Of a DNA stretch of 64,000 nt, positions 37,937 to 42,629 are shown in pieces. This DNA is from Vicingaceae bacterium (GTDB taxonomy: Bacteria; Bacteroidota; Bacteroidia; Flavobacteriales_E; Vicingaceae). The stretch covers positions 868,001-932,000 of the forward strand of contig JAGYIE010000002.1 of NCBI GenBank assembly GCA_018402765.1. Direction: 5' to 3'. Every line of letters begins with the position of its first letter. Position 1 is the first letter of the stretch. The notes below the pieces were generated by a model. It had not been told where the DNA came from. It saw only the letters and a list, made by a program, of their open reading frames with translations, and ran no database searches. The position numbers and the translations under genes are program-made.

Positions 37937-37948
37937 AAATTTTATAAC

Positions 37949-37981
37949 AAAAAAAAGGAGCAATCATTTCTGATTACTCCT
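37949..37981 (-). terminator. tRNA-type terminator, copy 1 of 11
   Basis: Minus strand: AGGAGTAATCA-GAAA-TGATTGCTCCT, 11-base stem with one G-U pair and a GAAA tetraloop, followed by eight T. It recurs every 457 bases, the eleventh copy (42519-42551) being the terminator of the intact tRNA gene. Confidence 0.85.
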
Positions 37982-37985
37982 CGCA

Positions 37986-38012
37986 GTAGCGGGGACAGGA
38001 CTCGAACCTATG
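37986..38012 (-). repeat. tRNA-fMet 3' fragment (first of ten)
   Basis: 27 bases identical to the intact tRNA from nucleotide 48 through the T-arm and the 3' acceptor strand to one base past A73. The D-arm, anticodon arm and 5' acceptor strand are missing, so it is not a tRNA gene. Copies recur every 457 bases; the last is 42099-42125. The GIY-YIG stop codon is the very next triplet. Confidence 0.93.
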
Positions 38013-38291
38013 TCACGCCTCAGGCGGATATAAGCCCTCCGATGCAAGAGTTGCTTTTAACCATTCTCTACCTTTACCTGATTTAAGGTATTTTTCTCTC
38101 TTCAGTGCTTCAGGTTTAGAATGATAGAATTCTACATAAACGACCTTCCATGGTCTGTATTTAATAGTGGAACCCTTCTTCGAAAGATGATTATGAGATT
38201 TGAATCGCTCGATTAAGTTTGATGTAAATCCTGTGTAGTATTTATTAAACTTCTTAGAGTGGAGAATGTAAATGACGAATTCTTCTTCCAT
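38013..38291 (-). CDS. GIY-YIG nuclease-family protein, copy 1 (divergent, distal)
   Basis: 92-residue single-domain protein of the UvrC/YhbQ-like GIY-YIG nuclease superfamily. The two halves of the name motif are VIYIL (6-10) and YYTG (18-21); the catalytic-type residues Tyr8, Tyr19, Arg29 (LIERFKSHN) and Glu66 (EALKREKYLKS) are all present, so the fold is probably active as a nuclease or DNA-binding protein. The tail GLYPPEA is encoded up to the base before the tRNA fragment. This copy ends TLASEGLYPPEA; the other nine end TLESKGLYPPEA. It is the copy farthest from the tRNA. No consensus promoter or Shine-Dalgarno was found; ATG lies 19 bases after a T-run of a terminator. Confidence 0.85.
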   Translation of the reverse strand: MEEEFVIYILHSKKFNKYYTGFTSNLIERFKSHNHLSKKGSTIKYRPWKVVYVEFYHSKPEALKREKYLKSGKGREWLKATLASEGLYPPEA

Positions 38292-38310
38292 ATTGAAAAT
38301 TTATATCATA

Positions 38311-38336
38311 AAAAAGGAGCTGAATTCTCAACTCCT
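38311..38336 (-). terminator. Second terminator inside each unit
   Basis: Minus strand: AGGAGTTGA-GAAT-TCAGCTCCT then TTTTT, 9-base stem. It shares the outer AGGAGT/GCTCCT pairs, including the G-U wobble, with the tRNA-type terminator, and recurs every 457 bases to 42424-42449. It lies just upstream of each GIY-YIG start codon. Confidence 0.75.
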
Positions 38337-38340
38337 CATA

Positions 38341-38385
38341 TTAGCGAGGAAAGGACTCGAATCTCAGGCGGATATGAGTCCTCCG
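38341..38385 (-). pseudogene. Relic of an older GIY-YIG/tRNA junction
   Basis: Minus strand CGGAGGACTCATATCCGCCT matches the end of the GIY-YIG ORF (CGGAGGGCTTATATCCGCCT in copy 1) with two changes, and after a deletion of about ten bases continues as TTCGAGTCCTTTCCTCGCTA, a diverged tRNA T-loop and acceptor strand. A related terminator follows. So each unit carries the fossil 3' end of an earlier element whose ORF body is gone. Repeats every 457 bases; last copy 42454-42498. Confidence 0.8.
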
Positions 38386-38469
38386 TATAAATTTCAGTTT
38401 ATAACAAAAAAAAGGAGCAATCATTTCTGATTACTCCTCGCAGTAGCGGGGACAGGACTCGAACCTATG

Positions 38470-38748
38470 TCACGCCTCAGGCGGATATAAGCCCTTCGAT
38501 TCAAGAGTTGCTTTTAACCATTCTCTACCTTTACCTGATTTAAGGTATTTTTCTCTCTTCAGTGCTTCAGGTTTAGAATGATAGAATTCTACATAAACGA
38601 CCTTCCATGGTCTGTATTTAATAGTGGAACCCTTCTTCGAAAGATGATTATGAGATTTGAATCGCTCGATTAAGTTTGATGTAAATCCTGTGTAGTATTT
38701 ATTAAACTTCTTAGAGTGGAGAATGTAAATGACGAATTCTTCTTCCAT
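38470..38748 (-). CDS. GIY-YIG protein, array copy 2
   Basis: Differs from copy 1 at two bases near the 3' end, changing A83 to E and E85 to K (numbered from Met1). First of nine copies with identical predicted protein. Confidence 0.83.
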   Translation of the reverse strand: MEEEFVIYILHSKKFNKYYTGFTSNLIERFKSHNHLSKKGSTIKYRPWKVVYVEFYHSKPEALKREKYLKSGKGREWLKATLESKGLYPPEA

Positions 38749-38926
38749 ATTGAAAATTTATATCATAAAAAAGGAGCTGAATTCTCAACTCCTCATATTA
38801 GCGAGGAAAGGACTCGAATCTCAGGCGGATATGAGTCCTCCGTATAAATTTCAGTTTATAACAAAAAAAAGGAGCAATCATTTCTGATTACTCCTCGCAG
38901 TAGCGGGGACAGGACTCGAACCTATG

Positions 38927-40297: not shown

Positions 40298-40576
40298 TCA
40301 CGCCTCAGGCGGATATAAGCCCTTCGATTCAAGAGTTGCTTTTAACCATTCTCTACCTTTACCTGATTTAAGGTATTTTTCTCTCTTCAGTGCTTCAGGT
40401 TTAGAATGATAGAATTCTACATAAACGACCTTCCATGGTCTGTATTTAATAGTGGAACCCTTCTTCGAAAGATGATTATGAGATTTGAATCGCTCGATTA
40501 AGTTTGATGTAAATCCTGTGTAGTATTTATTAAACTTCTTAGAGTGGAGAATGTAAATGACGAATTCTTCTTCCAT
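40298..40576 (-). CDS. GIY-YIG protein, array copy 6
   Basis: Predicted protein identical to copy 2; tRNA 3' fragment at 40271-40297. Confidence 0.83.
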   Translation of the reverse strand: MEEEFVIYILHSKKFNKYYTGFTSNLIERFKSHNHLSKKGSTIKYRPWKVVYVEFYHSKPEALKREKYLKSGKGREWLKATLESKGLYPPEA

Positions 40577-40754
40577 ATTGAAAATTTATATCATAAAAAA
40601 GGAGCTGAATTCTCAACTCCTCATATTAGCGAGGAAAGGACTCGAATCTCAGGCGGATATGAGTCCTCCGTATAAATTTCAGTTTATAACAAAAAAAAGG
40701 AGCAATCATTTCTGATTACTCCTCGCAGTAGCGGGGACAGGACTCGAACCTATG

Positions 40755-41033
40755 TCACGCCTCAGGCGGATATAAGCCCTTCGATTCAAGAGTTGCTTTT
40801 AACCATTCTCTACCTTTACCTGATTTAAGGTATTTTTCTCTCTTCAGTGCTTCAGGTTTAGAATGATAGAATTCTACATAAACGACCTTCCATGGTCTGT
40901 ATTTAATAGTGGAACCCTTCTTCGAAAGATGATTATGAGATTTGAATCGCTCGATTAAGTTTGATGTAAATCCTGTGTAGTATTTATTAAACTTCTTAGA
41001 GTGGAGAATGTAAATGACGAATTCTTCTTCCAT
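40755..41033 (-). CDS. GIY-YIG protein, array copy 7
   Basis: Predicted protein identical to copy 2; tRNA 3' fragment at 40728-40754. Confidence 0.83.
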   Translation of the reverse strand: MEEEFVIYILHSKKFNKYYTGFTSNLIERFKSHNHLSKKGSTIKYRPWKVVYVEFYHSKPEALKREKYLKSGKGREWLKATLESKGLYPPEA

Positions 41034-41211
41034 ATTGAAAATTTATATCATAAAAAAGGAGCTGAATTCTCAACTCCTCATATTAGCGAGGAAAGGACTC
41101 GAATCTCAGGCGGATATGAGTCCTCCGTATAAATTTCAGTTTATAACAAAAAAAAGGAGCAATCATTTCTGATTACTCCTCGCAGTAGCGGGGACAGGAC
41201 TCGAACCTATG

Positions 41212-41490
41212 TCACGCCTCAGGCGGATATAAGCCCTTCGATTCAAGAGTTGCTTTTAACCATTCTCTACCTTTACCTGATTTAAGGTATTTTTCTCTCT
41301 TCAGTGCTTCAGGTTTAGAATGATAGAATTCTACATAAACGACCTTCCATGGTCTGTATTTAATAGTGGAACCCTTCTTCGAAAGATGATTATGAGATTT
41401 GAATCGCTCGATTAAGTTTGATGTAAATCCTGTGTAGTATTTATTAAACTTCTTAGAGTGGAGAATGTAAATGACGAATTCTTCTTCCAT
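41212..41490 (-). CDS. GIY-YIG protein, array copy 8
   Basis: Predicted protein identical to copy 2; tRNA 3' fragment at 41185-41211. Confidence 0.83.
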   Translation of the reverse strand: MEEEFVIYILHSKKFNKYYTGFTSNLIERFKSHNHLSKKGSTIKYRPWKVVYVEFYHSKPEALKREKYLKSGKGREWLKATLESKGLYPPEA

Positions 41491-41668
41491 ATTGAAAATT
41501 TATATCATAAAAAAGGAGCTGAATTCTCAACTCCTCATATTAGCGAGGAAAGGACTCGAATCTCAGGCGGATATGAGTCCTCCGTATAAATTTCAGTTTA
41601 TAACAAAAAAAAGGAGCAATCATTTCTGATTACTCCTCGCAGTAGCGGGGACAGGACTCGAACCTATG

Positions 41669-41947
41669 TCACGCCTCAGGCGGATATAAGCCCTTCGATT
41701 CAAGAGTTGCTTTTAACCATTCTCTACCTTTACCTGATTTAAGGTATTTTTCTCTCTTCAGTGCTTCAGGTTTAGAATGATAGAATTCTACATAAACGAC
41801 CTTCCATGGTCTGTATTTAATAGTGGAACCCTTCTTCGAAAGATGATTATGAGATTTGAATCGCTCGATTAAGTTTGATGTAAATCCTGTGTAGTATTTA
41901 TTAAACTTCTTAGAGTGGAGAATGTAAATGACGAATTCTTCTTCCAT
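41669..41947 (-). CDS. GIY-YIG protein, array copy 9
   Basis: Predicted protein identical to copy 2; tRNA 3' fragment at 41642-41668. Confidence 0.83.
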   Translation of the reverse strand: MEEEFVIYILHSKKFNKYYTGFTSNLIERFKSHNHLSKKGSTIKYRPWKVVYVEFYHSKPEALKREKYLKSGKGREWLKATLESKGLYPPEA

Positions 41948-42125
41948 ATTGAAAATTTATATCATAAAAAAGGAGCTGAATTCTCAACTCCTCATATTAG
42001 CGAGGAAAGGACTCGAATCTCAGGCGGATATGAGTCCTCCGTATAAATTTCAGTTTATAACAAAAAAAAGGAGCAATCATTTCTGATTACTCCTCGCAGT
42101 AGCGGGGACAGGACTCGAACCTATG

Positions 42126-42404
42126 TCACGCCTCAGGCGGATATAAGCCCTTCGATTCAAGAGTTGCTTTTAACCATTCTCTACCTTTACCTGATTTAAG
42201 GTATTTTTCTCTCTTCAGTGCTTCAGGTTTAGAATGATAGAATTCTACATAAACGACCTTCCATGGTCTGTATTTAATAGTGGAACCCTTCTTCGAAAGA
42301 TGATTATGAGATTTGAATCGCTCGATTAAGTTTGATGTAAATCCTGTGTAGTATTTATTAAACTTCTTAGAGTGGAGAATGTAAATGACGAATTCTTCTT
42401 CCAT
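42126..42404 (-). CDS. GIY-YIG protein, array copy 10 (tRNA-proximal)
   Basis: Predicted protein identical to copy 2. This is the copy nearest the intact tRNA; 152 bases containing the relic junction and two terminators separate its start codon from the tRNA 3' end. Confidence 0.83.
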   Translation of the reverse strand: MEEEFVIYILHSKKFNKYYTGFTSNLIERFKSHNHLSKKGSTIKYRPWKVVYVEFYHSKPEALKREKYLKSGKGREWLKATLESKGLYPPEA

Positions 42405-42556
42405 ATTGAAAATTTATATCATAAAAAAGGAGCTGAATTCTCAACTCCTCATATTAGCGAGGAAAGGACTCGAATCTCAGGCGGATATGAGTCCTCCGTA
42501 TAAATTTCAGTTTATAACAAAAAAAAGGAGCAATCATTTCTGATTACTCCTCGCAG

Positions 42557-42629
42557 TAGCGGGGACAGGACTCGAACCTATGACCTTCGGGTTATGAGCC
42601 CGACGAGCTACCAACTGCTCCACCCCGCA
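42557..42629 (-). tRNA. Initiator tRNA-fMet (anticodon CAT)
   Basis: 73 nt, folds as a full cloverleaf on the minus strand. Initiator hallmarks: unpaired position 1-72 (U-U, where E. coli has C-A), an anticodon stem with three consecutive G-C pairs next to the loop (TCGGG / CCCGA around CTCATAA, anticodon at 42594-42596), and A11-U24 in the D-stem. CCA is not encoded. A GAAA-loop terminator follows directly, then the GIY-YIG array. No consensus promoter was seen in the 90 bases upstream. Confidence 0.95.

Follow-up and report, generated by a model that had tools for sequence, protein, structure and literature searches.

A tandemly arrayed, tRNA-linked GIY-YIG nuclease unit in Bacteroidota as a candidate homing-like mobile element

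Why should the initiator tRNA gene of a bacterium be followed by ten near-identical copies of one small nuclease gene, each accompanied by pieces of that same tRNA? The question is posed by a 64,000-nucleotide stretch of Vicingaceae bacterium DNA (assembly GCA_018402765.1, contig JAGYIE010000002.1, positions 868,001 to 932,000), hereafter the window, in which a tandem array of units encoding a 92-amino-acid (aa) GIY-YIG protein lies directly downstream of tRNA-Met. The answer we favour, with a probability of about 0.6, is that the unit belongs to a family of homing-like mobile elements of about 350-390 bp that enter tRNA genes and rebuild them, the tandem growth at any one site being secondary. 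L, G and C numbers below are our own handles for loci, genomes and contigs.

At the locus itself Tandem Repeats Finder (TRF) reports one array, at 37941-42582, with a period of 457 bp, 10.2 copies and 99% agreement, and unit-to-unit comparison resolves it into ten 457-bp units of which units 2-10 are identical across all 457 bp, with the distal unit 1 differing from them only at 38039 and 38044. Ten such units, nine of them identical and each with one 92-aa open reading frame (ORF), had been proposed by an earlier sequence-only reading of the window, and TRF, the unit comparison and Pfam all agree with it. The upstream anchor of the array is an intact tRNA-Met(CAT) at 42556-42629 on the minus strand, which carries all of the array features too, and both ARAGORN and Rfam (tRNA model, 64.8 bits) find this as the single tRNA in the area; by eye it has the initiator features of a GGG/CCC anticodon stem and an unpaired 1:72 position. 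A 72-bp block made of tRNA nucleotides (nt) 48-74 and a terminator recurs with 100% identity at all unit boundaries, from an extra partial copy at 42511-42582 that overlaps the tRNA gene (terminator stem 42525-42552) to a last displaced copy at 37941-38012 at the far end, and here too the earlier description holds.

Unit 10, which is proximal to the tRNA (42054-42510), serves to show the parts. Reading away from the tRNA there is first a second, diverged tRNA 3' end with its own terminator (42413-42499, terminator 42427-42450), a nuclease-less remnant that matches the tRNA 3' end at 78% and is repeated in every unit. The GIY-YIG ORF follows at 42126-42404, and behind it, by sequence match, come the displaced tRNA T-arm, 3' acceptor strand and terminator at 42054-42125. 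In this displaced copy the tRNA stretch that should precede the T-arm, the place of the anticodon arm, is swapped for a small palindrome CGCCTGAGGCG at 42129-42139, which overlaps the last codons of the ORF. The remaining ORF calls are copy 9 at 41669-41947, copy 8 at 41212-41490, copy 7 at 40755-41033, copy 6 at 40298-40576, copy 5 at 39841-40119, copy 4 at 39384-39662, copy 3 at 38927-39205, copy 2 at 38470-38748 and copy 1, which holds the two substitutions, at 38013-38291. Judged by its parts the window unit joins a complete element to a nuclease-less remnant, and because of that fusion it exceeds, at 457 bp, the usual length of about 350-390 bp. The second tRNA end and the palindrome had not been remarked upon in the earlier reading.

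That such a unit behaves as a discrete insertion is seen most directly where empty and filled alleles can be laid side by side. Locus L214 (empty) and locus L131 (filled) match on both sides, upstream through tRNA nt 76, and differ by an insert of about 361 bp; in L131 the tRNA is followed by a new terminator, the nuclease gene, a hairpin-bearing remnant starting from tRNA nt 23 and the native terminator, with tRNA nt 23-76 duplicated. The native terminator GGGACAAAGAAG...TTCTTTGTCCC stands directly behind the tRNA in L214 and downstream of the insert in L131, and the other, element-borne type of terminator, AACACCACTT..AAGTGGTGTT, recurs at loci whose native terminators differ (L108 vs L210). 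Genome G087 has both states at tRNA-Val, one locus empty and one with three copies, sharing the same downstream sequence. For the window locus the comparison is one-sided: the der-era-tRNA segment is collinear with the empty locus of congener G002 at 86% identity exactly to the tRNA end, beyond which G002 differs, and in G001 the contig ends. Precise empty alleles in relatives had been predicted for a minimal single-ORF element that sits on a tRNA, restores it with a 3' part of its own and multiplies in place, and the insert of about 361 bp, the displaced copies and the arrays bear that outline out.

The content of the insert also speaks to where the nuclease gene comes from. It holds the GIY-YIG ORF only and no tyrosine or serine recombinase, the tRNA is uninterrupted, and Rfam searches reported no group I intron family. 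A GIY-YIG gene left over beside one attachment site of a worn-down tyrosine-recombinase island at a tRNA 3' end would have some precedent, given that tRNA-Met 3' ends serve as integration sites of islands in these bacteria (PMC12561888), and some arrays look split from their tRNA by later insertion (L120, L100, L243). The filled and empty alleles, however, differ by the nuclease unit alone and the anatomy is uniform in about 100 loci, so that an origin from such islands seems very improbable.

That anatomy follows a common order. Behind the intact tRNA stand a new terminator and then, some 35-70 bp downstream and on the same strand, one GIY-YIG ORF; next comes the displaced tRNA remnant, usually with a perfect hairpin in the place of its anticodon arm, and, where an empty site can be compared, the old terminator of the tRNA. 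At 95 of 114 tRNA-linked loci the ORF is followed by a displaced copy of the T-arm and 3' acceptor strand of the linked tRNA, and a palindrome with arms of at least 6 stands just ahead of the displaced copy in 83 of the 95 (one of these, L067, is a run of N and is to be discounted), against 4.4% of shuffled sequences. The original anticodon segment is kept in only four of the 95. Remnants of the Met type typically read CTCATA-TCCGCC..GGCGGA-C(A)CAGGTTCGAGTCC, and at Ala, Val, Asn, Pro and Arg loci hairpins of the form TCCCG..CGGGA or TTCCGAT..ATCGGAA occupy the anticodon-arm place. The duplication begins at tRNA nt 21-23 in the best-kept cases. Entry into the T-arm, as first supposed, is thereby disfavoured because the displaced copy loses its anticodon arm and the duplication starts so far upstream; the T-arm appears instead to be the repeated homology block.

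All seven sites of TCCCG..CGGGA in the genome from which the window comes lie within a tRNA-Asn array. The TCCGCC..GGCGGA palindrome is also dispersed in some Flavobacterium genomes, which rules the hairpin out as a strictly element-specific marker; it may have been recruited by the element and not made by it. Such hairpins away from GIY-YIG genes occur in L230, L238, L239 and L232; by eye those of L230 and L238 resemble RNase P RNA variable helices and those of L239 resemble tRNA remnants. At the tRNA-Pro(ggg) loci L057 and L066 a variant form is met, the L057 displaced copy having its D-arm and T-arm replaced by hairpins and its anticodon arm kept. At tRNA-fMet in L217 (congener G001, C21) and L211 (a Flavobacterium, G060 C6) there are tandem mini-units that consist of a tRNA 3' end, a terminator and a hairpin but contain no nuclease gene, and these look like non-autonomous derivatives. 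A function of the displaced pseudo-tRNAs as tRNA-like RNAs was rejected, the Rfam tRNA model recognising the intact tRNAs only.

How general the arrangement is was judged from 60 genomes in the class. A GIY-YIG homologue is present in 48 of them, and tRNA-linked copies in at least 25, a tally over the part of the matches that was inspected. The earlier picture of one element on one tRNA is too narrow: the same placement, the nuclease gene usually being on the strand of the tRNA and just 3' of it, recurs at tRNA-Met, Asn, Ala, Val, Pro, Arg, Leu, Phe, His and Asp, at least ten amino-acid specificities, with matching between subfamily and tRNA. The 78 nearest homologues taken from named genomes, mostly cultured Flavobacterium, include 63 on the same strand 3' of tRNA-Met, as had been anticipated, the nearest copy usually being 35-100 bp off; no other tRNA type is the upstream neighbour in this set, and a contig end is where most of the remaining 15 begin. 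The loci of the tRNA-linked clades that have no tRNA nearby, in the six inspected (L100, L112, L134, L141, L243, L249), have a truncated tRNA 3' end ahead of the gene, as would be expected had other DNA later inserted at the tRNA. L010 (C10:590205-590438 of the genome of the window) is a solitary GIY-YIG gene from a neighbouring subfamily; it has no tRNA near it and, by eye, a transposase-like sequence beside it.

Tandem arrays are common and run from two to eight copies (L053 with eight, L244 with five, L094 and L168 with four, L246 with three), and the copies within single arrays are homogenised at 92-100%. The genome of the window has a second, independent array that the earlier reading did not include: growing from tRNA-Asn, a 379-bp unit that bears a different GIY-YIG gene is repeated 4.6 times. 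It is preceded, within L009:621-2854 (C9:624120-626353), by a 127-bp array of 3.7 copies made of tRNA-Asn 5' parts with hairpin TCCCGTTCAAACGGGA. In Flavobacterium covae AL-02-36 (L215) three identical tandem tRNA-fMet genes lie directly upstream of a three-copy GIY-YIG array. The copy number of the window array depends on the assembly, near-identical 457-bp units being difficult to assemble, and many related contigs end at GIY-YIG genes, which together might suggest that the assembler created the ten-fold repeat. Against this, unit 1 has two private substitutions, the same genome has two different arrays at two tRNAs, and arrays also lie inside large single contigs of other species (L124, CP067379.1, with three copies, as well as L168 and L244), and so an artefact is scarcely credible.

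The association with tRNA is one of type as well as of place. On a protein tree of 117 rows the tRNA-type labels require 28 changes, compared with a mean of 61.8 after shuffling and with none of 200 shuffles as low, and so the subfamilies evidently track tRNA type; since the tree was built from 85 columns and leaves many forks open, the clustering can be trusted and not the detailed branching. In a sister clade of GIY-YIG genes none of 26 is tRNA-linked. The Met clade has both initiator and elongator tRNA-Met genes as hosts, and the longest stretch that these two tRNAs have in common, by eye TCATAACCC-NN-AGGTC(AC), overlaps the segment replaced by the hairpin. This overlap is suggestive, and is kept at that strength because the Met-clade tree is too weakly resolved for host switches to be counted firmly. 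At L094, L129, L139 and L170 the intact-looking elongator tRNA-Met by the element has an odd T-arm (GGGGGATCGTGCCCCC) in place of a normal T-loop.

The protein itself is assigned to the GIY-YIG family (PF01541, 1.6e-16), to which homing nucleases belong, and has intact catalytic residues, Y8, Y19, G21, R29 and E66 being invariant across 22 homologues. Its AlphaFold2 model (predicted local distance difference test, pLDDT, 89) is a bare GIY-YIG core, with 1zg2 as a structure match at the sequence level. Over 837 pairs from 72 Met-type genes the ratio of nonsynonymous to synonymous substitution rates (dN/dS) is 0.12 at the median and exceeds 1 in no pair, indicating strong purifying selection. 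A known anti-phage defence protein was ruled out, no PADLOC family being matched, as was a known phage family, there being no PHROG match at 0.01 and no phage record.

The history of the gene appears to depart from that of its hosts. Compared with Flavobacterium, the Era protein of the window is about 57% identical and the GIY-YIG protein up to 70%, whereas compared with neighbours of the same family Era is about 65% identical and the GIY-YIG protein only 46-52%; neither of the congeners, with Era at 93-96%, showed a Met-type copy. This reversal of rank is a signal of horizontal transfer, and so the nuclease gene appears to move. It also bears on whether a useful small GIY-YIG gene of the host simply came by chance to lie behind tRNAs, its arrays then arising from RecA-dependent unequal crossing over between repeats of tRNA 3' end and terminator. 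Purifying selection and homogenised arrays would suit a host gene, and direct repeats can be expanded by recombination alone, yet that account leaves unexplained the reversed ranks and the patchy presence among close relatives, the occurrence at ten or more tRNA types, and the displaced tRNA copies, the rule of hairpin for anticodon arm and the element-borne terminators. We consider a host gene rather improbable.

Under the favoured reading of a homing-like element, the sole gene of each unit would encode a single-domain GIY-YIG nuclease specific for one tRNA type, which would cut the unoccupied tRNA gene, probably in the region of the anticodon arm, the break then being repaired from an occupied allele. 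This repair would fuse the 5' part of the tRNA to the 3' part and terminator that the element carries, leaving the tRNA whole and shifting its former 3' part and terminator downstream. Replacement of the displaced copy's anticodon arm by a hairpin would most simply remove the nuclease's own site, and the shared T-arm and terminator repeats, together with repeated breaks, could then multiply the unit in tandem. That the insertion is carried out by the nuclease itself is our inference, as it was in the sequence-only reading.

Several observations weigh against this reading. In genomes G062, G063 and G064 the intact tRNAs of filled and empty loci are identical nucleotide for nucleotide and only the flank differs, so that self-protection by disruption of the target is not visible in the tRNA; either recognition reaches into the downstream flank or self-cutting is tolerated, and any self-immunity must lie in the flank or in the control of expression, or be absent. 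The nearest solved folds are Slx1, a structure-selective nuclease, and the UPF0213 proteins, rather than homing endonucleases, and the protein has no DNA-binding domain besides the core. No copies occur among phage records searched at 1e-3, and the two plasmid matches are both distant, the one inspected lying inside a suf operon with no tRNA annotated nearby. At some filled loci (L057, L066) the nuclease is 5' of the intact tRNA and so the geometry is not uniform, and vertical descent at a fixed locus could account for part of the tRNA linkage.

The fold in particular admits a nuclease acting on DNA structure rather than on tRNA sequence, that is a Slx1-like enzyme cutting a hairpin or cruciform extruded by the tRNA gene or the palindrome, with the hairpin of the displaced copy as the working end of the element and the matching of tRNA type a result of local copying. 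Hairpins are working ends in IS200/IS605 and repetitive extragenic palindromic (REP) systems. The best structural matches are nucleases for branched DNA, the hairpin takes the same place across several tRNA types, and mini-units without nuclease (L211, L217 and the 127-bp array in L009) retain it and are still tandem. But the arms of the hairpin vary by subfamily, similar palindromes stand elsewhere in Flavobacterium genomes with no GIY-YIG gene, and the protein subfamilies track tRNA type, and on balance we find recognition of structure unlikely, if worth keeping in mind.

Around the array, two neighbouring acyl-CoA synthetase genes (629 and 635 aa) occupy 33998-37885 and end just short of its distal end.

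A further proposal, to which we give slightly less than even odds, is that the units make up a new class of mobile element. It would be defined by a single Slx1-like GIY-YIG nuclease of about 90 residues, with neither recombinase nor intron, that targets tRNA genes via the anticodon arm, so that every subfamily is confined to a single tRNA type; the element would supply the tRNA with a new 3' half and terminator, and a hairpin swapped in for the anticodon arm would mark the displaced copy. If true, few known autonomous mobile elements would be as small (about 350-390 bp), and an overlooked layer of selfish DNA would lie hidden at tRNA 3' ends, showing how essential genes are parasitised without harm and how a nuclease of about 90 residues can, without a separate DNA-binding domain, become dedicated to a single tRNA gene. 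The open-access papers searched describe no bacterial system of this form, subscription journals being outside the search, and to that extent the earlier statement that none had been described stands; it did not take account of related behaviour in phage, that of SegB (PMC13096335).

Of the known systems the integrase-type tRNA elements, such as the tyrosine-recombinase integrative and conjugative elements (ICEs) at tRNA-Met in Chryseobacterium (PMC12561888), likewise rebuild the tRNA from a 3' copy of their own and displace the old 3' end as a direct repeat; in contrast the present family has no integrase and an insert of only about 361 bp, its duplication extends back to tRNA nt 21-23 and the anticodon arm of its displaced copy is replaced. 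Group I introns with homing endonuclease genes in tRNAs share the tRNA-associated nuclease gene and the focus on the anticodon region, but here the tRNA is uninterrupted. The present family would work like a free-standing homing endonuclease gene, a definition that it fits only in part. Slx1 and the single-domain GIY-YIG proteins of the UPF0213 or COG2827 type share the fold and catalytic residues, the other members of the latter not being tRNA-linked (26 of 26 in the sister clade, and the Azospirillum copy in the suf operon); if the favoured reading is right, the family would show whether a bridge joins structure-selective, Slx1-like nucleases to homing nucleases.

The closest known analogue is SegB, among the free-standing GIY-YIG homing endonucleases of T-even phages, whose gene is listed between tRNA-Arg and tRNA-Ile (PMC2988022). 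SegB cleaves tRNA genes, with the motif RAWTSGAAC, and its catalysis is needed for the tandem amplification of the tRNA-segB unit that it drives (PMC13096335); we read the motif as the T-loop. It belongs to phage genomes, whereas no relative of the window protein is in PHROGs or phage records, and it is not described as supplying a new tRNA 3' half or terminator, as leaving a tRNA remnant with a hairpin swapped in, or as forming families of units of about 360 bp that are each specific to a tRNA type. The nuclease gene among tRNA genes and the tandem amplification of tRNA and nuclease together are the points of likeness, and the SegB work shows that such amplification can be driven by a GIY-YIG nuclease with tRNA genes as its targets, of which the arrays of identical nuclease units described here would be a natural bacterial counterpart.

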